Shown here one piece after another: positions 30,314 to 44,807 of a stretch of 64,000 bases of DNA. A model generated the notes under the pieces. It worked only from the letters and a program-made list of their open reading frames with translations, was not told the DNA's origin and searched no databases. Source of the DNA: Staphylospora marina (GTDB taxonomy: Bacteria > Bacillota > Bacilli > Thermoactinomycetales > Thermoactinomycetaceae). A program made the position numbers and the translations under genes. Every line of letters starts with the position of its first letter. The stretch's first letter is position 1. The stretch covers positions 2,330,182 to 2,394,181 of the forward strand of contig NZ_CP034118.1 in assembly GCF_003856495.1 (NCBI RefSeq). The letters run 5' to 3'.

Positions 30314-31321
30314 TCACGAGTGGTATTTCCGGTACAACTTCTCCGTTTCCGCTCTCACCTGCTCGACCAACTCCGACGGTTCCAACACTTTCACCCGGGA
30401 TCCCCAGGTCAGGATCCAGTTGATCAACCCTTGGCTCACCTTGGCTTTGACTTTCAGCACGAATCGGTGCCCTTCCCGCGGCTCCACGTTCACATCCATC
30501 CCGAACCGGTCAAACACCATGTTGAGAAAATCGTTTCGTTCATTGTCCTCAAATTCGAGCTTCACCACTTTTTCCTCTCCGTTGAACATGTGGAACGATG
30601 TCCGGACATACTCCCCGATATTCAGCGGTTTCGGTTCGAACGACTTCTCCCCGACGATCTGCACGTTGTCCATCCGGTCCACCCGGAAGTGGCGAAAATC
30701 CGGTTCATTCAGATATTCGGCAACCAGATAGTATTTGTTCTCCCACCAAACAAGCGCATACGGACGGGCCACGTAGAACCGGCCTTCCTGATGATAATGG
30801 AACTTCTTGTCCGGCCCGTACTTTCCGTACCGGAAACGGACCTCTTTCCGTTCATTGATGGCCGTGTACAGGGTGTCAATGAAATACTTGAGCTTGCGGT
30901 TGCGGGTTCTCGGCACATAATCCATCAACTTGCAAGGTTCCTTCAACTTTTTCGCCTCATGAATGCTCACCGGCTCCAGCAAGCGGTCGATCAGGTCCAT
31001 CGCGTCACCTTTTGTGATGAACATCGAAAACATGATGGCGTCGATCAGCATGCGCAACTGATATGTCTCAAAATTGCGTTCATTCAGCCAATATTCATTG
31101 GCCCCGTTGTTCCCCCGCTGCTGCCACAGGATGTCATAGCCTGCCTCGACCAGCGTGTGGATGTCCGACTCCAGCGCCTTCTTCCCCGGCAACTCATCCG
31201 TCAGAAGCTCATGCTTCAGCTTCTGTGCGATTTCCTTGAGCGTCAGCCTGTGTTCCGGATCCGTGTCCCTCTCCAGAATCCTCAGTACCTTCAACATGCG
31301 AAGTTTTCCACTGTACTCCAT
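30314..31321 (-). CDS. WYL-domain transcriptional regulator
   Basis: 335 residues from ATG 31321 (GGAGG seven bases upstream). The N-terminal helix-turn-helix (LRMLKVLRILE, LTLKEIAQKL) is followed by a WYL core (EGRFYVARPYALVWWENKYYLVAEYLNEPDFRHF has the diagnostic R-P-x-x-L-V-W-x-N-x-Y-Y-L pattern) and a C-terminal extension. WYL proteins bind ligands or nucleic acid and often control phage-defence genes. It sits directly downstream of the helicase gene but behind a terminator, so has its own transcript. Confidence 0.9.
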   Translation of the reverse strand: MEYSGKLRMLKVLRILERDTDPEHRLTLKEIAQKLKHELLTDELPGKKALESDIHTLVEAGYDILWQQRGNNGANEYWLNERNFETYQLRMLIDAIMFSMFITKGDAMDLIDRLLEPVSIHEAKKLKEPCKLMDYVPRTRNRKLKYFIDTLYTAINERKEVRFRYGKYGPDKKFHYHQEGRFYVARPYALVWWENKYYLVAEYLNEPDFRHFRVDRMDNVQIVGEKSFEPKPLNIGEYVRTSFHMFNGEEKVVKLEFEDNERNDFLNMVFDRFGMDVNVEPREGHRFVLKVKAKVSQGLINWILTWGSRVKVLEPSELVEQVRAETEKLYRKYHS

Positions 31322-31417
31322 GTCATCCTCCGTGAAAATGTTTCTGGTATCTTTTCTTTCTGTATTCTGATTCGAAGTGAGCGGCTGTTTTTTGTTCAGC
31401 AAGTGCTTTTTTACAAG

Positions 31418-31440
31418 AAAAAACCCCCGGGCCGGGGGGA
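31418..31440 (-). terminator. Intrinsic terminator of the helicase transcript
   Basis: A palindromic CCCCCGG/CCGGGGG hairpin followed by six T on the minus strand. Confidence 0.8.
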
Positions 31441-31549
31441 TCAATTGTCTGAGAAGCGTGATTTCAGAGGTTTGGCAGTGTTTTTGACAAAACGACGAAA
31501 AACGGCATGCGGCATTCGGTGAGACATCTTTTTGAAGACATTTTGTTTG

Positions 31550-33925
31550 TCAGGATTCCTGCGGGCTTCCTTTTTCGAAATATGCGTGCAACCGGTATTC
31601 ACAAATCTCTTTGATGATCGCGTGCAGTTCCGGTGAACGAATCTCCCGGTATCCGCTTGCGAAAAAACGGTCTCCTTCCAGCAAAAAAAGTCCGTTTGCG
31701 GAACCGGCCCATTTGGTCATGGGCATGTGTTTGATCAACCGGGCCACTTTCTTTTCGTCGTAGCCAAGCGACAACTCTTTGTTCCCCAGAATATCCTTCT
31801 TCTTTCGGTAAGGGACCTCTTCCAGCCAATGATAAAAGGAAGGCGCGGCTTCACTTGCCGAAATGGGTTCGGCCCATCTTTGCGCGCCGCGATCCAACAT
31901 CACCTTGAGCAACACCATCTTGTAGCTTCTTGACATCGAAGTGGTTTCCACATTCCGGATCAGTTCCCGGTATGCATTCACCGCCTCCGATTCGGCCGGA
32001 GACAGTTCACCCATGAATTCCAAAAACTCGGCGTATGATTTCCATTCCGATTTGTACCCTCTCACATCTTCCCAACCGTGCAGGTGCAACTCCAGATAAG
32101 TGGGTCTTCTTCCCAGCCGATATTTCACATCCTGATAACTCTGGATCAAACGACGTTTTCGAAGAGGGAGATCATTGTCATACCGGGAGATCAGATCGAT
32201 CGATCGGGTGTCCAGTTCAAACAGGCACGCTTCGGGGAGCGATGCCACAAAACGCGTTTTTCCCTTTTTCCGTTCCAGGTCCCCGAACAGGCGCAACTTC
32301 ATTTCCAGGTTGCGATAATTCCCGATCAGGTCAATGACCTGACAATATTCTTTGCCCGGCGCTTTGCGAAGACCTCGCCCCAATTGTTGCAAAAACACCG
32401 CCATGGATTGCGTCGGACGAACAAACAACAACGTGTCAACCGACGGTATGTCCACGCCTTCGTTGAACAGATTCACCGCGAAAATCACGTCGATGCGGCC
32501 TTCCTCCAGCTGCCGGATCGCCTCCTGACGATCGGTTCGATGGTCTCCGCACAACGCAACGGTCTTGAACCCGCGTTGATTGAAATGATCCGACAGATAT
32601 CGGGCCTGACGAATGGATCCGCAAAAAGCCAGCGTCCGCGTCTGTCTGAATTCCAGCCACTTGCGGAAGATTTTCTCCGCCATCTCTTGCTGAATGAATG
32701 CCTGTTCCCATTGATATGGATCGTATTGACCATTGACATACCGGATTTTCCGGTAATCGATCTCATCATACACGCCCTGATATCGGAAGGGGGACAAGAA
32801 TCCTCTTTGGATCGCTTCCGTAAAATCGATCCGGTAAGCCACGTTGTTGTCACACAACGCATACACATTTCCTCCGTCCAACCGGTCGGGAGTGGCGGTG
32901 ATGCCCAGCAAGAAACGCGGCCGGAAATGATTGATCACTTTTTGATAGGTCTTCGCCGCCGCGTGATGGAATTCATCGATGATCACCAGCTCAAATTCAT
33001 CGGGATGGAATCGTTCCAAATGATGCTTCATCGACAGCGTTTGGATGGACGCAAACAGAATGTCGGCATCTCGATCTTTTCTGTATCCGTTGTACAATCC
33101 GGTCTTCCGGTCCGGTATCACCTTGGTGAACGTTGCCTGCGCCTGCCGGAGAATTTCATCTTGGTGAGCGATGAACAACACTTTGCGGAATTCCATTCGT
33201 TGCGCAAAAAATGCGCTCATGTACGTTTTTCCGAGTCCGGTGGCCATGACCACCAAAGCCCGGTCGTACCCTTCTTCCCTGGTGGCGGACAGGGCTTGCA
33301 AAGCCTCTTCCTGTATTTCATGGGGCGTGATGGTGATTTCGTGTCGGGGAAGGGGGTCCTCTTCGCTCAAAACCAAGGGATCTTCTTCCGGCCACACTTC
33401 GGGATGAATCTTGTGAAACGAAGCGTATTCTTCCTTGTACTCCCGAATGGTTTCCGGATTGACATCCACCGTTCGGTCATCGTGAAACACATCCATGAAT
33501 GCTTCCATGGCTTTCTCGAAAACAGCGGGATCCACATCCCGATCAACGGACAGATTCCATTCCACACCTGTTTTCAACGCACTCGCCGACAAATTGGAAG
33601 ATCCGATGATCATCAAACCGTTGTCATGTGTTCGGAACAAATAGGCCTTGGGATGGAAGGACCGGTTTCCGGAACGGAACAGCCGAAACTCCACCCCCGG
33701 AATGGCATGCAATACCTCCAATGCATCCGGAGAGGTGACATACAAATAATCACCGGTGCATATCTTGATGTCCGCTCCCCGCCCGGAAGCCTGTCTGAGC
33801 GGTTCGGCCAGAAGATGTGCCCCCGATTTGAGAATGAAAGAAGTCAACATATAGATGGAAGATGACTGGTGGATCGCTTCGATCAATTGATCATACAATC
33901 CGGAGGTTGACAGACGAATTCCCAT
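31550..33925 (-). CDS. PLD-nuclease / SF2 helicase fusion protein
   Basis: 791 residues. Residues 1-150 are a phospholipase-D-like domain with one HKD site: SFHPKAYLFR and then GSSNLSASAL. Residues about 200-560 are an SF2 helicase: Walker A ATGLGKTYMS, DEFHH (DEAH-like box), GITATPDR, and the second RecA domain with NEGVDIPSVD and QQLGRGLR. The rest (about 560-791) is a DUF3427-like C-terminus. Related proteins pair restriction-like nuclease and translocase. Its ATG overlaps the MazG-like stop (ATGA), so both are translated together. A role against invading DNA is inferred, not shown. Confidence 0.85.
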   Translation of the reverse strand: MGIRLSTSGLYDQLIEAIHQSSSIYMLTSFILKSGAHLLAEPLRQASGRGADIKICTGDYLYVTSPDALEVLHAIPGVEFRLFRSGNRSFHPKAYLFRTHDNGLMIIGSSNLSASALKTGVEWNLSVDRDVDPAVFEKAMEAFMDVFHDDRTVDVNPETIREYKEEYASFHKIHPEVWPEEDPLVLSEEDPLPRHEITITPHEIQEEALQALSATREEGYDRALVVMATGLGKTYMSAFFAQRMEFRKVLFIAHQDEILRQAQATFTKVIPDRKTGLYNGYRKDRDADILFASIQTLSMKHHLERFHPDEFELVIIDEFHHAAAKTYQKVINHFRPRFLLGITATPDRLDGGNVYALCDNNVAYRIDFTEAIQRGFLSPFRYQGVYDEIDYRKIRYVNGQYDPYQWEQAFIQQEMAEKIFRKWLEFRQTRTLAFCGSIRQARYLSDHFNQRGFKTVALCGDHRTDRQEAIRQLEEGRIDVIFAVNLFNEGVDIPSVDTLLFVRPTQSMAVFLQQLGRGLRKAPGKEYCQVIDLIGNYRNLEMKLRLFGDLERKKGKTRFVASLPEACLFELDTRSIDLISRYDNDLPLRKRRLIQSYQDVKYRLGRRPTYLELHLHGWEDVRGYKSEWKSYAEFLEFMGELSPAESEAVNAYRELIRNVETTSMSRSYKMVLLKVMLDRGAQRWAEPISASEAAPSFYHWLEEVPYRKKKDILGNKELSLGYDEKKVARLIKHMPMTKWAGSANGLFLLEGDRFFASGYREIRSPELHAIIKEICEYRLHAYFEKGSPQES

Positions 33926-34248
33926 CAGTCCGTCACCTCCACCAGAAACAATTTCCGATCAAATCCTCCGCGCTTGCTCAACTTGTCTCTGCGGATCTTC
34001 TCCAATTCTTCCATGGTTGCACCGTGACATTCCGCCAGTGCATGAATCAACTCAAGCAAATCCGCAAGCTCTTCAAGGGACTCCCTGTCATTTTTCGCAG
34101 CCTCATACTCCGCCAATTCTTCGTGCAACTTCTTCCGGGCTTCTCTTTGGAATTCCTCGTCACCGAGTACCCGGGTGATCGCCTTTTTCCCGGAAGCCTC
34201 AATGATTTCCGGAATGCGGTCCCGAATCAATTTTTCATATACGGGCAT
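33925..34248 (-). CDS. MazG-like nucleotide pyrophosphohydrolase
   Basis: 107 residues from ATG 34248 (GGAGG upstream). All-alpha NTP-PPase fold with acidic helix motifs KLHEELAEYEAAKN and ELADLLELIHAL that bind magnesium (EExxE and ExxD). The opening YEKLIRDRIPEII is the typical phosphoribosyl-ATP pyrophosphohydrolase-like start. It hydrolyses nucleoside triphosphates in known members. First gene of the helicase operon; coupling and shared terminator suggest joint action. Confidence 0.85.
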   Translation of the reverse strand: MPVYEKLIRDRIPEIIEASGKKAITRVLGDEEFQREARKKLHEELAEYEAAKNDRESLEELADLLELIHALAECHGATMEELEKIRRDKLSKRGGFDRKLFLVEVTD

Positions 34249-34459
34249 GTGAACGCCTCCAATGATGTACTCTCGTGAATTTACGGTTTCATGATAAGAA
34301 TTCGTGATTCGGGGAAAATTTGTGGTCCACCCTCACTAGTCCAGCGACATTCTCAAAAAAACAATCAACGCAAGAGTTGAACGATTGCAGGAGCATGCCA
34401 ACCGTCCCGCCAATAAACAGTATCAGGAACAAAAATTCTCGTTCTCCGGAGGTCATCCC

Positions 34460-34984
34460 ATGGACGACTTGCGCTCCCCGATCGGTCCGTACGTGGAACC
34501 GTCCCGATTGACGGAAGAGGAGATCAGCCGACTCATCGAAAGGATGGACGACATTCCCGCCAAGCTGGAGCAGGCAGTGTTCGGTCTGAACGAAGAGCAA
34601 TTGGACACGCCGTATCGGCCGGGCGGCTGGACGTTGCGTCAAGTGGCTCATCACGTGGCGGACAGCAACTTGAACGTGTTTCTCCGCTTCAAATTTGCCC
34701 TGACGGAAGAAAACCCCCGAATCATGCCGTTCCCGGAGGATTTGTGGGCCGAACTGCCGGACAGCCGGATGCCGGTCGAACCATCCATCCGATTGCTGAA
34801 GGGGCTGCATGAACGATTGACCGTTCTGCTGAAATCCATGGAATACAAGGATTTCGCGCGCACGTACCATCATCCGGATCTCAAGCGGGAGATCCGGTTG
34901 GACAAGGTCCTGGACATGTATGTCTGGCACAGCGAGCATCATCTTGCGCAGATCACCCGATTTCGGGAACGGATGGGCTGGTGA
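34460..34984 (+). CDS. YfiT/BstA-like bacillithiol transferase (DinB fold)
   Basis: 174 residues from ATG 34460 (GGAGG upstream), the same length as B. subtilis YfiT (BstA). It matches throughout: YPIGEY-like PIGPYVEP, DTPYRPGGWTLRQVAHHVADS with the first metal His, ALTEENPRIMPF, and VWHSEHHLAQITRFRERMGW with the other two His. Such enzymes attach bacillithiol to electrophiles such as fosfomycin-like or haloalkane compounds. Divergent from the MazG-helicase operon. Confidence 0.9.
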   Translation: MDDLRSPIGPYVEPSRLTEEEISRLIERMDDIPAKLEQAVFGLNEEQLDTPYRPGGWTLRQVAHHVADSNLNVFLRFKFALTEENPRIMPFPEDLWAELPDSRMPVEPSIRLLKGLHERLTVLLKSMEYKDFARTYHHPDLKREIRLDKVLDMYVWHSEHHLAQITRFRERMGW

Positions 34985-34989
34985 ATGCG

Positions 34990-35022
34990 AAAACAGCCGA
35001 CTCGTGAAGAGTCGGCTGAAAC
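34990..35022. terminator. Bidirectional intrinsic terminator
   Basis: CAGCCGACTC pairs with GAGTCGGCTG. The leftward reading ends in TTTT and serves the operon ending at 35029. Confidence 0.8.
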
Positions 35023-35028
35023 TTTTGA

Positions 35029-35742
35029 TCAGAAATCGACCAGACGTCCTCTTTGTCCAGCGGAAGCATCCGGGGCTTCGATGTCCTGCCCTTGCGGCTT
35101 TCCGACCGTCGCCAGTTTTTTCAGCCGCACCCTGATGTGAGGCTTCAATTCGAGGCTGTCGGCAAAATCGTCCACGGAGGTAAAGCCGCCCTTCTCCAGC
35201 CGCTTTCTGACGGCCAGTTTGGCCAGGATCAGGTTCATGCCCGGGAGGGTGGCCAGTTCTTCCTCGGAGGCGGTGTTCAGATCCACGAGGCCGGACGGCT
35301 GAGAAGAATCCGGAACGGAAGGATTCGCGGAAGGAGATGTTCGCGAATCCGGCCCGACGGACGGTGCGGATCGCTTTCCTTCATACTCCCGGAGAATCTG
35401 TTTCCTCAGATCCTCCAACTCTCGATTTATGATTTGATTCCGATACCGGAGACGCTCCAGGTATTCACGACGGATCAACATCGCATGGATGATCGAAACA
35501 GGCCACAGCGCAACCGCCACTCCCGCAGCAAGATCCATGTACACATCGCTCAGTACCCCTTCACTGATCATCATCACGACAAAGGGAATGGCGTACCCGA
35601 TACCGGCCAGCACCCACTTGCGCTGCCTGACCCTGATTCCGATGTAAAAGAATGAGACCCAGTTCAAAATTCCCAATGTGAACAGTGCCCAGCCCATCCA
35701 CAGGGAGTTCCAAAGCTCCCAGTACTTGCTCTCCTCATTCAT
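35029..35742 (-). CDS. Membrane protein with ComEA-like helix-hairpin-helix domain
   Basis: 237 residues from ATG 35742 (AAGGGGAAAG upstream). Residues about 8-90 hold three hydrophobic segments (MGWALFTLGILNWVSFFYIG and two more), then a charged helix (REYLERLRYRNQII), a flexible Ser/Pro linker and a C-terminal HhH domain: VDLNTASEEELATLPGM is the ComEA signature, used there for DNA binding. Fifth and last gene of the Ycf46-type operon; its start overlaps the radical-SAM stop by 8 nt. No competence gene is near, so it may tether the other four proteins to the membrane. Confidence 0.8.
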   Translation of the reverse strand: MNEESKYWELWNSLWMGWALFTLGILNWVSFFYIGIRVRQRKWVLAGIGYAIPFVVMMISEGVLSDVYMDLAAGVAVALWPVSIIHAMLIRREYLERLRYRNQIINRELEDLRKQILREYEGKRSAPSVGPDSRTSPSANPSVPDSSQPSGLVDLNTASEEELATLPGMNLILAKLAVRKRLEKGGFTSVDDFADSLELKPHIRVRLKKLATVGKPQGQDIEAPDASAGQRGRLVDF

Positions 35743-36445
35743 CGGCTTTCCCCTTCTTGGGTGGAGATTCTCGTTCCAATTCCAGTTCTTCGAGCAATTC
35801 CTGCAAGGCATCCATGTCGGCCACTCCGTTCAAGGTGACGATCCCGCCCCGCTCCAGACGGATTTCCAACCGGTTCCGATGGCGCCCGAGTTCCGGTTTC
35901 AAAAAGGCGTACCTGTCCGTGAGAAAATGGATCCGCTGATTGGAAGAGCCCACCCAGGGACGGCTGACATCCGCTTTCTCCCGCATGAACGGACCGTCCA
36001 GCAAAATGTCCGTCACGCCCAGCAATGCGTGCCAGTCCGGACGGGAAGCGGCCCTCAGTTCTTCCAACCGGTAACCCGAATAGGTCACCACCGACATTCC
36101 CCGATGTTTCAGCATCCGCCCCAATGCAGCCAGAGGAGCCGCCTGGTCGAACGGCTCTCCCCCGGCAAACGTCACCCCTTCCACCTCCGGCCCTTCAAGG
36201 ATCCGCCGTGCCAGCTCCCCGACGGTCACCGTTTCCCCGCCGTTCGGGGACCAGGTCCAGGGGACCGCGCAACCCGGACAGCGGATGGAACACCCCTGCA
36301 CCCAGATGCACGCCCGGATGCCGGGACCTTCCGCGCGGGTCTTCGGAAGAAAGCGATGCAGGCGGAGGGTGAGGTCTCCCCCCGCTCCTTGCCCCGTCCA
36401 GGCATCAGTCCTCGCGGAGCCGCTGCTGTTGTTCGGTTTGCTCAT
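35735..36445 (-). CDS. Radical-SAM (4Fe-4S) activase-like enzyme
   Basis: 236 residues. The cluster motif is C-x3-C-x2-C in VQGCSIRCPGC, with FAGGEPFD (SAM-binding GGEP) and further strands typical of NrdG/PFL-activase type enzymes. No glycyl-radical partner is in the window, so its target is unknown. It overlaps DUF2997 by 41 nt and couples to the HhH gene. AGAGGTTC lies directly before ATG 36445. Confidence 0.85.
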   Translation of the reverse strand: MSKPNNSSGSARTDAWTGQGAGGDLTLRLHRFLPKTRAEGPGIRACIWVQGCSIRCPGCAVPWTWSPNGGETVTVGELARRILEGPEVEGVTFAGGEPFDQAAPLAALGRMLKHRGMSVVTYSGYRLEELRAASRPDWHALLGVTDILLDGPFMREKADVSRPWVGSSNQRIHFLTDRYAFLKPELGRHRNRLEIRLERGGIVTLNGVADMDALQELLEELELERESPPKKGKADE

Positions 36446-36617
36446 GAACCTCTTCCTCTTCGTAATATTCCGGCGTGAAATCGGAATCCACCGTCTCCGC
36501 TTCGAGCAGCTCTTCCAGAATCCCGATGTAATCCGTGCAGCGCTTTCCCTTGACTCCCTCGACCTCGGCCTGGATGGTTCCGTCGGGGAACAGCCGGATC
36601 TTTACCCGCTTTTTCAT
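36405..36617 (-). CDS. DUF2997 protein
   Basis: 70 residues. A beta-strand pair (KIRLFPDGTIQAEVEGVKGKRC) and CTDYIGILEELL match the DUF2997 family, whose function is unknown. A strongly acidic, Glu/Gln-rich tail follows (TPEYYEEEEVHEQ). Its ATG overlaps the preceding stop (TGATG). In other genomes DUF2997 sits beside DUF1257 and Ycf46-type ATPases, as here. Confidence 0.85.
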   Translation of the reverse strand: MKKRVKIRLFPDGTIQAEVEGVKGKRCTDYIGILEELLEAETVDSDFTPEYYEEEEVHEQTEQQQRLRED

Positions 36618-37060
36618 CACGGTCCCCCCTGCACCGTATAGGTCAGCACGATGGAGTGATCTTCCTGCACTTCTTCCGACTCCAGTTCCAATCCGCGGGT
36701 GGATGCCCGTTCTTTCAATCTCCGGTAGACCTGCTCCTGCAGGAGAAGGGTGTACTCTTCCTGGATCAGGGAGACCAGTTCGGCGGCTTCTTCCTCCGTC
36801 CAATCTCCGACAAACCGGAAATCGTGAGTTCGGGATTCATCGTTCAGGTGAATGGTCAACTGTTTGTCCGGACCGCCCTCCACCTTCAGGACCCCGTCCT
36901 TCTCTTCCACCGCCCATCCCGCGCGGACCAGGGATTTGTTGAGGAGATCCCTGTTTTTCATGCGGGTTCCCAGCACCAGTTCCCGTTGCTCCGTTTTTCT
37001 GGTTTCCAGCATCCCGGCGGCAGCCATTGCCACGGGAACCAAGACCACCATGACCCCCAT
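36617..37060 (-). CDS. Ycf35-like protein (DUF1257)
   Basis: 147 residues from ATG 37060 (GGAGGG upstream). The hydrophobic start (MGVMVVLVPVAMAAAGM) could be a membrane anchor, an addition I do not expect in cyanobacterial Ycf35. The core (LLNKSLVRAGWAVEEKDGVLKVEGG, DESRTHDFRFVGDW, EEEAAELVSLIQEEYTLLLQEQVYRRLKERA) follows the DUF1257/Ycf35 pattern. Function is unknown in bacteria. Second gene of the operon. Confidence 0.8.
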   Translation of the reverse strand: MGVMVVLVPVAMAAAGMLETRKTEQRELVLGTRMKNRDLLNKSLVRAGWAVEEKDGVLKVEGGPDKQLTIHLNDESRTHDFRFVGDWTEEEAAELVSLIQEEYTLLLQEQVYRRLKERASTRGLELESEEVQEDHSIVLTYTVQGGP

Positions 37061-37075
37061 TCGGATCCCTCCGTC

Positions 37076-38725
37076 TCAAAAATCGATGGTTCTGCCGCCG
37101 CGGATTCCCCGCACGTCTTCGCCGGGAACCGGAGCAGTCGGCGAAATGCCCTGACCGGGAGCATAATCCTTCATGTCTTCCGGGGCGGTGGCGGCGACGG
37201 CCCGGACATTGGCCCACTCCCGGATGGCCCGGATTTGCTCCGCCTGAGTGACCGACAAGGGCACCATTTGGCGAATCGCTTTTTCGAAGTCATCCAAACG
37301 GACGCTCCGCTCCTCCGAAAACGCTTCGAACAGTCCGGCAATCACGGCCTGTTCCAGCTCCGCGCCCACGAATCCTTCGGTGAGCCGGGCCAGATGATCC
37401 AGCACTTCCTCCGTCACCTGAAAGGAGCCTGTCACCTTCGGATCCTGAAGACGCTTGCGAAGATGTACGGAAAAGATGTCCTTTCGCTCGCGGTGTGTGG
37501 GCAAATCGACAAAGAAGATCTCGTCAAACCTTCCTTTTCGGAGCAGCTCCGGCGGAAGACGGTCGATGTTGTTGGCCGTGGCCACCACGAACACCGGCGA
37601 TGTCTTTTCCTGCATCCAGGTGAGAAACGTGCCGAACACCCGGGCAGACACCCCGCCGTCCCCGCCGATTCCGAGTCCGCCGAAGCCTTTTTCGATCTCG
37701 TCAATCCAGAGCACGCACGGGGCAATCGCCTCCGCGGTGCGAATCGACTGGCGCATGTTTTCTTCACTGCTGCCCACGATGCCATGGAAAATGCGTCCCA
37801 AATCCATTCTCAGCAGCGGCAGGTGCCACATGGCGCTGATCGATTTGGCGATGAGGCTCTTTCCGCAGCCGGGCACTCCGGTGATCAGGACACCTTTGGG
37901 CGCCGGAAGACCGTACCGCCTGGCCGATTCGAGCCAGGAGTTGCTCCGCTTTTTCAACCAGCGCTTCAGGTTCTCGAGCCCCCCCACGTCGTTCATGTCC
38001 AGGTTGGAGGAGACAAACTCGAGAATGCCGGTCTTCTGGATGATCTGCCGCTTCTCTTCGTGGATGACGTCCACTTCGTCGGCGGTGAGCCGCCCGGTTT
38101 GGGCCATGGCCCGGGCAAAGGCGTTTTCGGCCTCTTTCAGCGTAAGGCCCAGGGCCGCTTTCGCCAATCGCTCCTTGTCTTCTTCGGTCAGCGAAATGGT
38201 GATGCGTCCCGATTTGCTGTTGACCCTCACCATGTCCGTCAACAGGGCGAGAATATCTTCAAAGGTGGGAAGAGCGAAGTCGAGAAGGGTCACATCCTTG
38301 CGCAATTCATCCGGGAGGACCGTCAGCGGGGACACGAAAATGATGCTTTTCGGGGAAACGCTCCGTTTCAGTTCCGCCGCCAGATCCCTCAGTTTGCGGA
38401 TCAGCAAATGATCGGGACGCGCGCTCCCCGCCCCGAAATAGACGTGAAAATCGCACAACACAAAGACCGACGGCTCCTGAAACTTTCGGATCCATTCGAG
38501 TGCTTTCAGAGGAGGCCTCGTTTCTTCGGAACCGGACATTCCCTCGCCGCGAATCCCTTCCGTCGCGGTCCAGACAAACATCTTCCGCGGCGTCCGGATG
38601 CGGCGGGCATCCTTGACCAAACCCTTGATCACTTCCAGCACGCGTTCTTCTTCCCAGGTCGGGATGTAAATCAGGGGAAACCTGGCTTTCAACAAACTGG
38701 CCAATTGCAGGTCAAATCGGGACAT
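37076..38725 (-). CDS. Ycf46-like AAA ATPase
   Basis: 549 residues. Residues about 1-240 form an inactive N-terminal ATPase-like domain ([18 protein letters not shown], then [11 protein letters not shown]). Residues about 260-480 are a classical AAA domain: [13 protein letters not shown] (Walker A), [11 protein letters not shown] (Walker B), SRH ([28 protein letters not shown]). The C-terminal helices end with a flexible tail. Ycf46 is the chloroplast/cyanobacterial relative; its role is in stress or carbon uptake there. First gene of a five-gene operon; GAGGGAATTGA precedes ATG 38725 and a TATAAT lies about 45 nt upstream. Confidence 0.88.
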
Positions 38726-39563: not shown

Positions 39564-40502
39564 TCACTTCTTGGTCACCAATTCCACCTGCACCGGGTAA
39601 TAGGCATCCACTTTTTCTCCCTTCAGCGCCTTGAGTGCCGTTTCCACGGCCATCTTGCCCATGTCGGCGGGTTTCTGGGCGACGGTGGCGGCCAGTTCGC
39701 CGGCGTTCACGGCCTTGACGGCGTCTTCGGTGGCGTCGAAGCCGACGATGAGGATTTGCTTTTTGGCGGCTTTGACGGCTTCGAGGGCGCCGAGGGCCAT
39801 TTCGTCATTGTGGGCGAAGACGGCCTGGATGTCCGGATGGCTTTGCAGGATGTTTTCCATGACGCTCAGTCCCTTGGCGCGGTTGAAATCAGCCGGCTGT
39901 TTGGCGACGATCTCCACACCCGGCTTGCCGTCAACGGCCTGGTGGAAGCCTTTGCCACGGTCATGGGCCGCCGAGGTGCCCGCCAGTCCCTCCAGCTCGG
40001 CAATTTTGCCCTTGCCGCCCAGTTTCTGCAGGATGAACTCCCCGGCCAATTGGCCGCCGGCCACATTGTCGGAAGCGATGTGCGACAGAATCTTGATGTC
40101 CTTGCCTTCCGCGGCGCGGTCCACGGTGATGACCGGGATGCCTGCCTTGTTGGCGGCTTCGACGGCGCTGGATGCCGCCTTGCTGTCCGTCGGGTTGAGC
40201 AGGATCAGGTCCACTTTCTTCTGGATCAGGTCTTCGACGTCATTCAGCTGCTTGGCGGTGTCGTCCTGGGCATCGGCGACGACCAGCTCGGCACCGGCCG
40301 CCTTGGCCGCCTGTTCGGCCCCGTCTTTCAGTGTGACGAAGAACGGGTTGTTCAACGTGGAGACGGACAGACCGATGGTGATCTTGTCATCGGACGTATT
40401 CTGATTTTCCCCGCCCGCCTCCAGGCTGGACTTCGTGGAGCATCCGGTAACCACCAATACGGCGAGAAGGAAGCACAACGCAAACAACCGCAAGCGTTTC
40501 AC
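39564..40502 (-). CDS. rbsB: Ribose ABC transporter substrate-binding lipoprotein
   Basis: 312 residues from GTG 40502 (GGAGGTG upstream). A lipoprotein signal ([10 protein letters not shown]) and the periplasmic-binding fold of Rbs[60 protein letters not shown]. Carries ribose outside the cell to RbsC. A 238-nt gap separates it from rbsC, where I see no gene. It ends the operon at a terminator. Confidence 0.94.
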
Positions 40503-40740
40503 GGGTCAGCACCTCCGCTTTGAATGCCGATAGATTCAGCGGCTGGATCACAAAGAGTTGTTGCATCATGAATCATTCTGCCTCCGCCGCCACGGCGTCC
40601 GGCTCACTCCTCGCTGCTGTCCTCCGGGGAGCCAGCGGAAGGACGTGGCCGGTTTCATACATTGCCGTGTCATCGTGTGTCTCACTGCTTTTTAGCTTTT
40701 CCGTGACGCGCGACAGCCCGGACCGCATGCGGGATCGGGC

Positions 40741-41700
40741 TCAGGTCCGCCCCTCCCGTGAACGGTCCAGCAGGACGGCCAACAGGATGACACATCCCTT
40801 GACCACCTGTTGATAGAATGATGAGACATCCAGCAGATTCAGCCCGTTGTCCAGCACACCCATGATCATCGCGCCGACGAGGGTGCCAAACATCCATCCC
40901 CGGCCGCCGCTCAGGCTGGTCCCCCCGAGCACGGCCGCGGCGATGGCATCCAGTTCGTATCCCATGCCGGCCACGGGCTGGGCGGAGTGGAGCCGGGACG
41001 TGAGAATGATCCCGCCAAACGCGGCAAAAAAGCCGCTCATCGTGTAAACCGCCAGCTTGATCCGTTCCGTGCGGATGCCGGAGTACAGGGCCGCTTCCTC
41101 ATTTCCGCCCACGGCGTAGACATGGCGTCCGAACACGGTGTGCCGGAGAATCATATGAAGGAGCAGACAAAACACGAGCATCCAAACAACAGGGACCGGA
41201 ATCTCCAGAAAGTACCCCTTGCCCAAGAGGGAAAACACCTCACTGTGGAAGGAAATGGGTTTTCCTTCCGTGAGAACAAGCACCCCGCCCCGGCAAATGG
41301 TCATCGTCGCCAGGGTGGCAATGAACGGGGCGATCCGGCCGTACGAGACCAACAAACCGTTGGCGGCACCGAGCAGCACCCCGACGGCCAGACCGGAAAG
41401 CGAGGCGGTCAGGGCATCCGTTCCACCGGACAGCAACGTGGCGGTGACGGCTCCGGACATGGCCAGAACCGAACCGACAGACAAGTCGATCCCGCCGGTG
41501 AGAATCACCAAGGTCATCCCGAAAGCAAGGAGTGCGTTGATGGAAATCTGGCGCAAGATGTTGAACAGGTTCGTGACGGTCAGGAAATCGGGCGTGACCA
41601 CCGACAGGACTGCGCAGATCAACATCAGCCCGAGCAGAGGTCCCGTCCGGCGCAGGGAAAAGGAGGACAAAATCTGTTTGTACGTCAGGGCCGGTTTCAC
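40741..41700 (-). CDS. rbsC: Ribose ABC transporter permease
   Basis: 319 residues, about eight to ten membrane helices, with the RbsC signatures GMTLVILTGGIDLSVGS, VGGNEEAALYSGI and AAVLGGTSLSGGRG. GTG 41700 overlaps the rbsA stop (GTGA), so it is coupled to rbsA. Confidence 0.95.
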   Translation of the reverse strand: MKPALTYKQILSSFSLRRTGPLLGLMLICAVLSVVTPDFLTVTNLFNILRQISINALLAFGMTLVILTGGIDLSVGSVLAMSGAVTATLLSGGTDALTASLSGLAVGVLLGAANGLLVSYGRIAPFIATLATMTICRGGVLVLTEGKPISFHSEVFSLLGKGYFLEIPVPVVWMLVFCLLLHMILRHTVFGRHVYAVGGNEEAALYSGIRTERIKLAVYTMSGFFAAFGGIILTSRLHSAQPVAGMGYELDAIAAAVLGGTSLSGGRGWMFGTLVGAMIMGVLDNGLNLLDVSSFYQQVVKGCVILLAVLLDRSREGRT

Positions 41701-43196
41701 CGGGCAATGGCACCTCCGGTCATGGCGGCGAGCACCGCTTCTTTTGATGCTTCATTTGCCGGAAATTCGGCGGTGATCCGGCCGTCCTTCATGGTCAGGA
41801 TGCGGTCGGCCATCAGCAGGAGTTCTTCCAGGTCGGACGAGATGAGCAAAACGGCGATGCCCGATGCGGCCAACGCTTCCAGCTGCCGGTAAATCTCCGC
41901 GCGGGCGGCCACGTCCACGCCGCGGGTCGGTTCATCAAGGATCAGGAGCCTCGGCGGGCGAACGAGCCATTTGCCCAGCACCACCTTTTGCTGGTTTCCG
42001 CCGCTGAGCAGGCGGGTTTCCCGGCGGGCGTCCGGAGGATGGATCCGCAGCCGGTGGATCAAATCACCGGATGACCGAACCTCTTCCGGGCCGCGGATCC
42101 AGCCCCACCGGGCATGTTCCCCTCCCGCGGCGAGATGCAGGTTTTCTTTCACCGACATGGACAGAACCAGACCCGTTTGTCGGCGATCTTCCGGCACCAG
42201 GGCCACTCCGGCGCGGACCGCTTCCGCCGGGTGGGAAAAGGAGACGGGCTTCCCGTCAAGAAGGATCTGCCCGTGGTCCGGACGGTCCACCCCGAACAGC
42301 ACCCGGGCCAATTCGGTCCGTCCGGAACCGGCCAAACCGGCCAAACCCACGATTTCCCCCGCGTGAATCCGGAAGGAAATGTCGCGCAGCCGGGAGTGCC
42401 GCGCCACGTTTTCCATCCTCAGCCGTTCGGGACCGTGCGCTCTCTCCCTGATCCGCCCCATGTCCACCGCCCGGCCCGCCATCTTCCGCACGAGCTCGTC
42501 CATCGTGACTTCCGACATCCGGAACGTGCCGGCATGTTCCCCGTCTCTCAGAACCGTGACCCTGTCGGCGATGCGGAACAATTCTTCCATGCGGTGTGAG
42601 ATGTAAATCATGCCCACACCCCGTTTCTTCAACTCGCCGATCACGGAAAACAGATTCTCGGATTCCTGCCGGTTGAGTGCGGACGTGGGCTCGTCCAGAA
42701 CGAGAATCCGTGCGTTTGCGGCCAGGGCCCGGGCGATCTCCACCAGCTGTCGCTGCCCCACCGAACAGTGCCACAGCGGCAGATCAGGATCCAGGTCGGC
42801 TCCCACCCGCCGCAGCGCCTCTTCCGCCGCTTCACGCATCTTGTCCCGATGGATCCAGCCCCACCGGGCAAAGAGGTGTTCCCGTCCGAGAAAGAGGTTT
42901 TCCGCCACGGACAGTTCGGGAACCAGCTGCAATTCCTGGTGAATCACGGCGATCCCGGCGGCGGTGGCGTCCCGGGGATCGCGGATCTCCACGGACGCGC
43001 CGGACAACCGGATTTCGCCCGCATCCTTGCGGTGAATGCCGGCGAGTATCTTCATGAGCGTCGATTTGCCCGCCCCGTTCTCCCCCAGCAGGGCATGAAC
43101 TTCCCCGGGGCAAAGCGTGAAGGAAACCCCTTTGAGAACGGGGGCTCCCTGAAATGACTTGCGAATGTTTTCCAGTTTGAGCAAAGGTTCCGTCAT
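41697..43196 (-). CDS. rbsA: Ribose ABC transporter ATP-binding protein
   Basis: 499 residues from ATG 43196 (GGGGATTC upstream) with two ABC domains. First: GENGAGKSTLMK and the linker/Walker B segment CSVGQRQLVEIARAL...LVLDEPTSAL; second: LLSGGNQQKVVLGKWL and LILDEPTRGVD. The second P-loop is replaced by GLAGSGRTEL, as usual in RbsA. It powers ribose import. Confidence 0.95.
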   Translation of the reverse strand: MTEPLLKLENIRKSFQGAPVLKGVSFTLCPGEVHALLGENGAGKSTLMKILAGIHRKDAGEIRLSGASVEIRDPRDATAAGIAVIHQELQLVPELSVAENLFLGREHLFARWGWIHRDKMREAAEEALRRVGADLDPDLPLWHCSVGQRQLVEIARALAANARILVLDEPTSALNRQESENLFSVIGELKKRGVGMIYISHRMEELFRIADRVTVLRDGEHAGTFRMSEVTMDELVRKMAGRAVDMGRIRERAHGPERLRMENVARHSRLRDISFRIHAGEIVGLAGLAGSGRTELARVLFGVDRPDHGQILLDGKPVSFSHPAEAVRAGVALVPEDRRQTGLVLSMSVKENLHLAAGGEHARWGWIRGPEEVRSSGDLIHRLRIHPPDARRETRLLSGGNQQKVVLGKWLVRPPRLLILDEPTRGVDVAARAEIYRQLEALAASGIAVLLISSDLEELLLMADRILTMKDGRITAEFPANEASKEAVLAAMTGGAIAR

Positions 43197-43329
43197 GATG
43201 AATCCCCGTTTGATTTCAATCATTCTGTGATCCGTTCATCTCCGGTTCCGGCTTGGTCTCCGGCGACGTTCGGGGATGACCGGATCCCGGCCCACCGTGG
43301 GGGGGTGAGTGGCACCGGACGAACCGGGT

Positions 43330-44256
43330 TCAGTTCTTCCGGCTTTCCAGTTCGTCCACTTCTCTCCGGGAGGGCATGCCGGTCTGCGCCCCGAACCGGG
43401 TGACGGCCAGTGAACCCGTGCAGACGGCGAAACGCACGGCGTCCGGCAGCGACCTCCCTTCCGCCAGTGCCACGGCGAGCCCGGCATGGAAGGCGTCCCC
43501 GGCGCCGGTGGTGTCGACCACCCGCACTGACCGGCCCGGTTCTGTTCCCCAATGGTCCCGTTCATCCAGGAAGGCCGCTCCGTCCGCTCCAAGCGTGACG
43601 ACGACCTGCCCCGCTCCCCTTTGCCTGAGCTGCCGCATGGCTTTCGGCAACGCTTTCCCTTCCGCCGGAAGTCCGGTGAGCGTTTCCAGTTCGATGCGGT
43701 TCGGACAGATCACATCGGTCAGGGCCAGCAACTCATCGGGCAGTTCACGGACCGGAGCGGGATTGAGCATCACCCGCACCCCTCGCCGTTTGGCCGTCCG
43801 TGCGGCAGCGATCACGGTTTCCATCGGGATTTCCAGTTGCAGGAGAACAGCGTCCGCCTCCGCGATCCGGTCTTCATGGGCGGCCACGTCATCCGGTGAC
43901 AGGCGTCCGTTGGCTCCCGGCACCACGATGATCGAATTGTCCCCGCCCGCCAGCGTGATGCCCGCCACGCCGGAAGGAACATCATCGAGCACCCGGACCG
44001 CTGCGGTGTCAACACCGCTTCCCCGGAGGGAGTCCAACAAGGTGTGACCGAACGGGTCTCCGCCCACGACGCCAATCATGTGAACGTCCGCGTCGAGCCG
44101 TGCGGCCGCCACTGCCTGATTGGCCCCTTTTCCGCCGGGGATGAACCGCACCGACTCTCCCATCACCGTTTCTCCCATTCGCGGCGGTCGGATTGCTTCG
44201 ATCACCACGTCCATGTTGATGCTGCCCACCACCACCAGCCTCGGTTTGCGCGACAT
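43330..44256 (-). CDS. rbsK: Ribokinase
   Basis: 308 residues from ATG 44256 (GGAGG seven bases upstream). PfkB family: VVVGSINMDVV, GGKGANQAVAAARL, and the catalytic DTTGAGDAFHAGLAVALAEG with the base Asp. Phosphorylates ribose. First gene of the operon rbsK-A-C-B. The usual rbsD is absent; 130 nt between rbsK and rbsA carry no convincing gene. Confidence 0.94.
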   Translation of the reverse strand: MSRKPRLVVVGSINMDVVIEAIRPPRMGETVMGESVRFIPGGKGANQAVAAARLDADVHMIGVVGGDPFGHTLLDSLRGSGVDTAAVRVLDDVPSGVAGITLAGGDNSIIVVPGANGRLSPDDVAAHEDRIAEADAVLLQLEIPMETVIAAARTAKRRGVRVMLNPAPVRELPDELLALTDVICPNRIELETLTGLPAEGKALPKAMRQLRQRGAGQVVVTLGADGAAFLDERDHWGTEPGRSVRVVDTTGAGDAFHAGLAVALAEGRSLPDAVRFAVCTGSLAVTRFGAQTGMPSRREVDELESRKN

Positions 44257-44283
44257 GCGTTCACCTCCCGGACAAACAATTGC

Positions 44284-44344
44284 GACCGATCGGTCATATT
44301 TATAATTCCGAAAACTATGATAACATATTTTTCTGTTTTTGCAA
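44284..44344 (-). promoter_or_regulatory. Ribose operon promoter with palindromic operator
   Basis: -35 TTGCAA (44339-44344), 16-nt spacer and -10 TATCAT (44317-44322). Downstream lies a perfect 12-bp palindrome GACCGATCGGTC (44284-44295), placed about 15 nt past the expected start; it is a likely repressor site. No LacI-type rbsR is in the window. Confidence 0.6.
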
Positions 44345-44609
44345 CAATAATGCAGCCCCCTGGATCCGGTAAAACGGATGCCAAACGAGTTTCCCTTTGT
44401 GCCGAAAAGGAAATGAGGCCCTTTCCCCAGCATGGTGACCAGAGAGCTCCTGTGAATCCGTTCCGAAGAATTGTCTGTTGGTATCCCCACCTTCCGGACC
44501 GCAAACACATCAACAGGCCCGGTGCACATGGGTGCGTCGGGCCTGCATGATTTCACGGTCCAATCTCCCATACCGCTCCCCGCTTGTTGTCGGGCTCCCG
44601 GGATGTCCC

Positions 44610-44775
44610 CCTGATCCCTTCCACCGAGAGTCCGCACTCCACCAGCCGATACATTGGGGAAAGCAGCTTCCGCTCCATCCGCTGGAAACCGGAAGGAATG
44701 TCTCCCCGATCCGAAGTTCAGTCCCATTCTCCTGACGGAACGTTGGCTTCCCATGCTTCGCACGGGCGGGCCACC
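44610..44775 (-). pseudogene. Decayed fragment of a UDP-glucose dehydrogenase gene
   Basis: This stretch aligns by eye with 47327-47462 of the intact ugd: both share GCTGGAAACC, TCTCCCCGATCCG, CCCATTC and GCTTCGCAC-GGCGGGCCAC in the same order, with many substitutions and indels. It codes for the GxGLDSRIGEKFLQVSSGWSGSCFP region in ugd, but here the frame is broken. It is the relic of a duplicated or replaced polysaccharide gene. The rest of 44296-44807 holds an 8-bp GGCCCG-type hairpin near 44515 and nothing else I can support. Confidence 0.65.
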
Positions 44776-44807
44776 TCCCGGCTTCACCTCTTAAGGTCGG
44801 ATGGACA

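Follow-up and report, generated by a model that had tools for sequence, protein, structure and literature searches.

A C-terminal tail shared by a Ycf46-family AAA ATPase and a membrane helix-hairpin-helix protein in a recurrent five-gene module

In Staphylospora marina, a 64,000-nucleotide stretch of contig NZ_CP034118.1 (hereafter the window, meaning the whole stretch of DNA analysed) carries five minus-strand genes at 35029-38725, coding in order for an AAA ATPase of the Ycf46 family, a Ycf35-like protein, a DUF2997 protein, a radical-SAM enzyme and a membrane helix-hairpin-helix (HhH) protein. The five recur together elsewhere, and the AAA and HhH proteins of the window end alike, GGRTIDF in the former and RGRLVDF in the latter. 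We read the set as one remodelling machine that may recruit membrane clients by this tail, with radical-SAM modification of the client as a hypothesis, and put the probability of this reading at roughly 45% - a joint figure, because the receptor is left open and the chemistry is marked as hypothetical. The shared tail did not figure in the initial annotation of this DNA, and we infer that it gives a concrete reason for the ATPase and the membrane protein to meet.

That the genes overlap or nearly touch, as the initial annotation had it, is confirmed by coordinates, strand and junctions: 15 bases separate the AAA stop from the Ycf35-like start, the Ycf35-like stop overlaps the DUF2997 start in TGATG (36619-36615), and both the DUF2997 and radical-SAM genes and the radical-SAM and HhH genes overlap. 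The further claim that they belong together is upheld by a neighbourhood survey of 98 loci. Eighteen of these are other DUF2997 loci with their flanks (the DUF2997 search was positive in 8 of 398 genomes of the window's phylum and 12 of 398 of its class, the window counted in each), and 80 come from a scan with an AAA alignment, these being the best 80 of at least 567 AAA relatives and not a frequency sample. Duplicates are kept in the tallies of open reading frames (ORFs): L029 and L039 are one contig, and a single protein is shared by L022 and L023. All five genes are present in 32 of the 98 loci, on the same strand in all 32, and in 10 gene orders (sorted by stop codon, since some mechanical ORF starts lie too far upstream); eight of the orders, representing 30 loci, have each gene type once. 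The commonest are AAA-Ycf35-DUF2997-HhH-radical-SAM (10 loci) and HhH-radical-SAM-AAA-Ycf35-DUF2997 (nine), and the window's own order recurs once, in L028. Neighbouring ORFs are separated by 60 bases or fewer in 126 of 139 cases, the only share used since mechanical starts are overlong (24/139 gaps fall below -60 bases). Recurrence in 10 gene orders excludes a chance neighbourhood.

Full loci are found in Bacillota, Actinomycetota, Gastranaerophilales, Bacteroidota and a metagenome-assembled genome (MAG) of Planctomycetaceae. One contig of an archaeal MAG (L042) holds only the AAA and HhH genes but ends just past the AAA gene; the MAG as a whole gave no radical-SAM match at E 1e-15. The genes may also be dispersed: in one genome (G776) the AAA gene lies about 400 kb from the other four and keeps its tail, and in another (G453) the AAA contig lacks the radical-SAM gene, which is on a different contig (E 4.6e-72).

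We describe the tail by a strict C-terminal pattern, R-x-[ILVMF]-[DE]-[hydrophobic], which in the window is encoded within 37079..37096 (GRTIDF, AAA) and 35032..35049 (GRLVDF, HhH), both on the minus strand. Across the collected loci the pattern ends 47/50 HhH and 42/94 AAA proteins, against 0/63 Ycf35, 0/58 DUF2997 and 0/46 radical-SAM proteins; among 9791 other ORFs it is found in 11, five of which are operon neighbours. Three HhH-set proteins are untailed, ending KRMVDMQ (L041), KGRRVD (L048) and IAEMN (a kinase ORF in L062). Where Ycf35, HhH and radical-SAM genes occur together, and if two extra residues are allowed, the AAA is tailed in 30 of 33 loci, the misses being L061, L066 and L071. 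Other membrane proteins carry the tail as well. In four loci with no HhH gene (L032, L034, L036 and L037), an unrelated protein with hydrophobic segments beside the radical-SAM gene bears it, the motif occurring, by eye, two or three times within the last 60 residues, and in L047 a tailed protein coded beside module genes combines an Mrr-type nuclease domain with two hydrophobic segments. A search of the window's genome for the narrower DNA pattern GRx-hydrophobic-D-[F/Y]-stop gives two matches, which are precisely the ends of the AAA and HhH genes, and a reversed-pattern control gives none. A tail on different families that share an operon, and on the motor itself, is as expected if both bind one type of pocket, and on sequence grounds we think it likely that the tail acts as a docking or recruitment signal.

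Could the likeness have another cause? Hydrophobic C-terminal tails are classic protease signals, so this one may be a degradation or stability signal; alternatively, the AAAs that adjoin HhH and radical-SAM genes form one clade, and their tails may simply be inherited. Both explanations must contend with the occurrence of the tail on different families (AAA, HhH and other membrane proteins) after variable linkers, and with its near confinement to module members in the collected loci, the narrower GRx-hydrophobic-D-[F/Y] form ending only two genes of the window's genome. We therefore hold a degradation signal, or likeness kept by descent, to be improbable as an account of the tail. An association between the AAA tail and an adjoining Ycf35 is confounded by descent and by the regular expression itself, and we make no claim on it. 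A glycyl-radical reading of the tail, in which GGR resembles a glycyl-radical site, was rejected because the genome search found no glycyl-radical domain and because conservation does not extend to the glycine that precedes the arginine: the residue at this position is Glu in 13 of 47 tailed HhH proteins, and the cyanobacterial ending is QRMEF.

Related endings can also be seen on plasmids and phages. Tails on a Rhodococcus plasmid read GRTFEF and GRRLEF; in a Mycobacterium phage the AAA protein terminates in RVLDL, and RAIDF stands near the end of the neighbouring gp94. Looser partner ends are SRVIHF and KRVIRL on a P. polymyxa plasmid and NRKLKL and RRAVKL in phages, while in a Streptococcus satellite phage the partner ends NRKIKI beside an AAA ending TRKVLV. 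In three of the five same-family genomes with a distant AAA, partner ORFs end KRRIIF or KRRIIFE. These looser tails were spotted by eye, with no chance comparison, and the AAAs concerned are mostly off the strict tail. Further motifs were also seen: the AAA of L158 ends RKLEM, a small protein in L086 ends RFSNLEL, and in 12 loci of another branch (L073, L075-L080, L084, L087, L098, L100 and L114) RFxxLE or RFxxIE is coded close to the likely start of a gene in the vicinity of the AAA gene, a start that in four of them was reinterpreted downstream of the listed ORF start. By eye, these proteins are often zinc-ribbon or TPR proteins; counted anywhere in the protein, RFxxLE or RFxxIE is present in 20 of 3040 unassigned ORFs in that group of loci and in 11 of 6751 elsewhere.

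The AAA protein (549 amino acids, 37076..38725, minus strand) matches PF00004 at E 1.2e-29. A P-loop is present in all 94 AAA ORFs and in the N-terminal half of none, so that it is confined to the second half of the protein. An AlphaFold2 model built from 51 sequences (mean predicted local distance difference test (pLDDT) 88.8, predicted template-modelling score (pTM) 0.81) finds p97/Cdc48 as its best Foldseek match, over the whole length (564 columns, E 3.6e-25, TM-score 0.64); against solved structures, TM-scores among the 50 matches listed range from 0.44 to 0.65. The predicted double (tandem) AAA fold is thus common to p97/Cdc48 and the module protein, which looks like a protein remodeller on this model. 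The two are unlike in that the module AAA is bacterial, has no first-half P-loop (0/94) and keeps different partners.

The HhH gene (35029..35811, minus strand) codes for a protein with membrane segments, a linker, an HHH_3 domain (PF12836, E 3.7e-11) and the C-terminal tail; from alignment with homologues, its start is probably at 35742 rather than 35811. Kyte-Doolittle hydropathy gives two membrane segments, in keeping with the initial view of a membrane-bound protein. Against the ComEA subfamily cut-off of 152.35 it scores only 25.9. In L053 (4311-9353), seven HhH proteins, all tailed, are coded upstream of the radical-SAM and AAA genes.

The two small proteins between the AAA and the radical-SAM enzyme may form a single unit. 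The DUF2997 protein (70 amino acids from the ATG at 36617; 36405..36617, minus strand) passes PF11211 at E 2.9e-16 and 59.5 bits (cut-off 24.1), and GxxGxxC is present in 54 of 58 DUF2997 rows, with the cysteine still kept in three of the other four. The Ycf35/DUF1257-like protein (147 amino acids, 36617..37060, minus strand), in which hydropathy indicates a hydrophobic N-terminal segment, matched no family in direct Pfam and NCBIfam scans, missing the PF06868/DUF1257 cut-off, but is recognised by profile-profile comparison: with hhalign, the window protein and 30 relatives from other loci align with 17 Ycf35-set proteins over 101 columns (probability 93.7, E 1.9e-7). That set, 15 cyanobacterial and two other proteins, was collected by our own iterated profile, and its only member checked against PF06868, from L089, matches at E 2.1e-23; a smaller trial, with six Ycf35-like rows against one sequence, gave a probability of only 28%. 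Of the DUF labels first given to these genes, to be checked by hidden Markov model (HMM) search, that of DUF2997 passes Pfam, while that of Ycf35 fails direct scans and passes the profile-profile comparison. Sequence searches for solved relatives found none convincing, with a best E of 0.011 for Ycf35 and 0.18 for DUF2997.

In L020, L022/L023, L032, L034, L036 and L037 the Ycf35-like and DUF2997 proteins are fused, the Ycf35 half having been recognised by eye and alignment (Pfam finds only DUF2997 in L034). We modelled the L034 fusion from 19 sequences (alignment A8; pLDDT 84.6, pTM 0.83). VIA-align places the spermine synthase N-domain first (Z 10.1, root-mean-square deviation 2.5, 92 residues), with SpeD at Z 8.6, and the alignments, which begin at residues 1-2 and end at 194-208, take in both halves of the fusion. 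Likenesses to the SpeD/spermine synthase N-domain lie at Z 8.0 to 10.1, only slightly above the range (under 8) that the tool calls common, with identities of 8 to 12%. The best Foldseek match is RnlA (E 1.6e-4), at a low TM-score. A viral structure library gave two matches under 0.001, neither with a TM-score above 0.24, and these were not used. We read Ycf35 and DUF2997 as one composite, two-layer and possibly SpeD-like domain in this predicted structure; the fold implies no function, and no decarboxylase activity is claimed.

What, then, does the radical-SAM enzyme (35735..36445, minus strand) act on? It is of the short PflA/NrdG type, matching PF13353 (E 1.9e-32) and PF04055 (E 1.2e-7), and CxxxCxxC is present in all 46 radical-SAM profile matches. 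One explanation is that it is an ordinary NrdG- or PFL-type activase merely located in the operon: PF13353 and CxxxCxxC are common to both, its best NCBIfam match is NrdG (TIGR02491, E 8.2e-30), and its nearest solved relative by profile is the PFL activase 3c8f (E 3e-19). However, the NrdG match, at 103.8 bits, is below the cut-off of 126.1, and the PFLA score of 54.3 bits is far under its cut-off of 231.75. Nor was a target enzyme found: in the window's genome there were no matches to NrdD (controls positive in 6/14 genomes) or to the glycyl-radical domain PF01228 (controls positive in 3/14). In addition, only two of 23 same-family genomes have the radical-SAM protein at E 1e-30, the window's and G491, and these are the two with DUF2997. 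Given these negative searches for NrdD and a glycyl-radical domain, the enzyme is probably not an ordinary activase, an explanation that we rate as very improbable, and its substrate is probably within the module. The same absences, together with the restriction to 2/23 family genomes, make it more likely that the enzyme modifies the substrate of the AAA protein; we advance radical modification of a client tentatively, as a possibility. A different type of radical-SAM gene (CRLCPxECG) lies directly upstream of the AAA gene in two Phycisphaerae loci (L100:2416-3246 and L114:8942-9772).

The initial annotation found it odd that genes known from chloroplasts and cyanobacteria should sit in a spore-former. 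Ycf46, Ycf35 and DUF2997 of cyanobacteria and red-algal plastids do belong to the same protein families as those of the module, and cyanobacterial Ycf46 and the module AAA are alike in having a P-loop in the second half only. To place them, 94 AAA proteins were put into a quick maximum-likelihood tree, which holds no plastid sequence and in which long branches make deep joins unsure. The window AAA falls within a 39-row clade (Shimodaira-Hasegawa-like approximate likelihood ratio test (SH-aLRT) 97) that comprises all 35 rows with HhH and radical-SAM genes, the window included, plus four others, whereas the 15 cyanobacterial rows form a separate clade (SH-aLRT 100). Since the two are in separate clades, the module AAA is, as judged from this tree, no orthologue of cyanobacterial Ycf46 but belongs to a sister subfamily; the family label Ycf46 is right, any implied orthology is not. 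The loci differ too: those of the cyanobacterial clade have AAA and Ycf35 with no radical-SAM or HhH match in the stretches examined, and the spacing of the AAA tail is shorter. In one cyanobacterium, Limnofasciculus (L068), a radical-SAM gene overlaps the AAA gene, and this AAA falls with the module clade. The plastid link is thus less odd than claimed, because relatives of the AAA span many phyla, plasmids and phages and because the module protein is not the cyanobacterial orthologue.

In the parts of the published work available to us, Ycf46 of Synechocystis is reported to affect CO2 use (Jiang 2015, as cited in PMC7496141) and is linked with carbonic anhydrase (PMC7496141), carriage of ycf35 and ycf46 by the plastid is associated with habitat among 127 red algae (PMC5940233), and ycf46 is up in threonine-treated cells (PMC12172450). 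A cyanobacterial cluster DUF2997-ycf35-fed7 is described (PMC4284462), ycf35 and fed7 depend on SigD (PMC8875361), and DUF2997 occurs across phyla (PMC13131479). The literature searched, with most subscription journals outside its coverage, yielded no description or function of the five-gene set, in line with the initial statement that none is established; nor did we find in it a described system that combines these parts or has this tag, each part belonging to a known family.

Relatives of the AAA protein are present in 71 plasmid and 54 phage records. A conjugative plasmid of Rhodococcus aetherivorans carries all five genes, annotated as AAA, hypothetical, DUF2997, HhH and 4Fe-4S single cluster protein, the hypothetical protein matching the Ycf35 profile at E 4.6e-19. 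Four phages have AAA, Ycf35-type and DUF2997 genes and one for a protein of about 200 amino acids; the Ycf35-type call rests on the DUF1257 label of the record in Rhizobium RHph_I4, on inspection by eye in Agrobacterium JP1 and on the profile in Pseudomonas BHU-17 and Aeromonas HJ05. A more distant (sister) AAA is present in five others of the 23 same-family genomes (L172-L176), and gene sets like these occur in a Comamonas plasmid (L166) and in the Streptococcus satellite phage (L159).

Such a distribution is consistent with a conflict or defence system, in which the core would sense or hold tailed effectors (membrane HhH protein, nuclease, kinase) and free them on infection. Presence is patchy (DUF2997 in 12/398 genomes of the class, the radical-SAM protein in 2/23 of the family), the full set is found on a conjugative plasmid, tailed or HhH proteins are varied (the nuclease with membrane segments and an Mrr domain, the untailed kinase ORF of L062, the seven HhH copies of L053), and a PLD-helicase gene is nearby in the window. 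The module resembles MoxR-vWA and related nucleoside triphosphate-dependent conflict systems in having an AAA core with variable partners, and one MoxR-vWA-type subset has a radical-SAM protein thought to modify a peptide effector (PMC7159879, as far as available). Ycf46 and DUF1257 are, however, absent from the main text of that paper (PMC7159879), and a Pfam scan of the five module proteins found no vWA domain. Other evidence points away from defence. PADLOC has no match for the Ycf35-like, DUF2997, radical-SAM or HhH protein; the AAA protein matches IetA (E 4.1e-18, residues 161-505), as AAA proteins may, and falls below the NCBIfam cut-off for the IetA-type anti-phage ATPase, at 56.4 of 510 bits. 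Pfam scans of ten HhH-set proteins showed a kinase domain in one and no known toxin domain in any, and flanking ORFs, read without HMM annotation, vary among the loci listed. On balance we consider a defence role unlikely.

A second alternative is that the module is a maturation or assembly factor for envelope machines (type IV pili, secretion, injection) or for a redox protein (ferredoxin-linked enzymes), with the radical-SAM enzyme as a special tool. PilT-like genes, identified by eye, lie beside the AAA-Ycf35-DUF2997 trio in L076 (5160-6209), L083 (14448-15494) and L100 (8020-9105), and a radical-SAM and an AAA gene are found within a contractile injection cluster on the Treponema succinifaciens plasmid pTRESU01 (L158) and in L086. 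The similarity of HHH_3 to T2SSK and the cyanobacterial DUF2997-ycf35-fed7 cluster (PMC4284462, seen in part) fit the same view. Against this, no pilus or injection gene was recognised by eye beside five-gene loci among the loci listed, and the distribution is patchy for a maturation factor. This, too, we judge unlikely.

Taken together, we favour a single remodelling machine made by the five genes. The AAA protein would be a Cdc48-like motor, presumably ring-forming, whose second half binds ATP and whose first half is degenerate, and Ycf35 and DUF2997 would combine into one adaptor domain offering a SpeD/TBP-like platform. Client recruitment, in this case of the membrane HhH protein, would be by the C-terminal motif R-x-hydrophobic-Asp/Glu-hydrophobic; the AAA protein bears the same motif on a flexible tail, and both tails would bind the same kind of pocket, located on either the AAA ring or the Ycf35-DUF2997 adaptor, the choice of partner being hypothetical. 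The AAA tail may be a latch that clients displace. The ATPase would then remodel the client at the membrane, and the radical-SAM enzyme might reach and change a residue. The earlier suggestion that the AAA remodels the radical-SAM enzyme's substrate at the membrane is thus supported as regards the remodeller fold and the recurrence of a membrane protein and the radical-SAM enzyme as partners, while modification of the AAA's substrate is a hypothesis. A bolder version, which we regard as rather doubtful, is a general tag-and-remodel system: the Cdc48-like motor, SpeD-like adaptor and radical-SAM enzyme would act on any membrane protein with the tag, which would be exchangeable, the motor would latch itself, the enzyme would mark the client, and plastid Ycf46/Ycf35 would be reduced cousins free of radical-SAM.

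Several observations weigh against a single tail-recruiting machine. First, the tail is far from universal: 52 of 94 AAA ORFs lack its strict form, including all 15 from cyanobacteria, which end [QK]R[ML]EF and fail the pattern because their spacing is one residue tighter, and in tails on distant phages and plasmids the acidic position is taken by Lys, Arg or His. Second, the GRx-hydrophobic-D-[F/Y]-stop pattern is not exclusive to the module as bare DNA outside the window's genome, since 16 other carrier genomes give 45 matches against 16 for the reversed control. The DNA pattern also admits the non-stop codon TGG; 30 of the 45 matches became loci and seven further stretches were added, and in this reading, which covered part of the matches, every strict-tail ORF was an AAA or HhH protein save one of 61 amino acids. 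Third, per-column entropy drops from 3.0 to 4.0 bits before the tail to 0 to 3.1 in its last five columns, a fall in part built in, as the rows were preselected by tail. Fourth, the last nine residues of the AAA model have a mean pLDDT of 69, which makes tail docking unreadable there, and the composite domain was modelled on the L034 fusion, not on the window's proteins, at Z values barely above the common range. Finally, cyanobacterial loci have AAA and Ycf35 without a radical-SAM gene in the stretches examined, and the present results tie the radical-SAM enzyme to no named residue.

Around the module, the HhH gene is followed downstream by a yfiT bacillithiol transferase gene in convergent orientation (34385-34984; NF009807, 226.3 bits, cut-off 160). 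Between the two converging genes lies a 9-base perfect inverted repeat, agccgactc/gagtcggct (34995-35017), perhaps their shared terminator; it is not among the predictions of a terminator scan. Beyond yfiT, 30314-34248 codes for a WYL-domain protein, a large PLD-helicase protein (best PADLOC match mREase_IV, E 3.3e-100) and a small ORF with a weak PRA-PH match, a possible defence island adjoining the module. On the other side, 39564-44787 holds, by eye, a sugar (ribose-type) ATP-binding cassette transporter operon and a carbohydrate kinase.

Ycf46, Ycf35 and DUF2997 have long been little understood in cyanobacteria and plastids, and a five-gene relative in cultivable bacteria makes their function testable. 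The short tag can be synthesised as a peptide, and the question can be addressed by binding and mass spectrometry. Should the tag prove to serve for docking, a bacterial Cdc48-like motor would have a new code for client recruitment; modification of the client by the radical-SAM enzyme, should it occur, would likewise be a new one for proteins.

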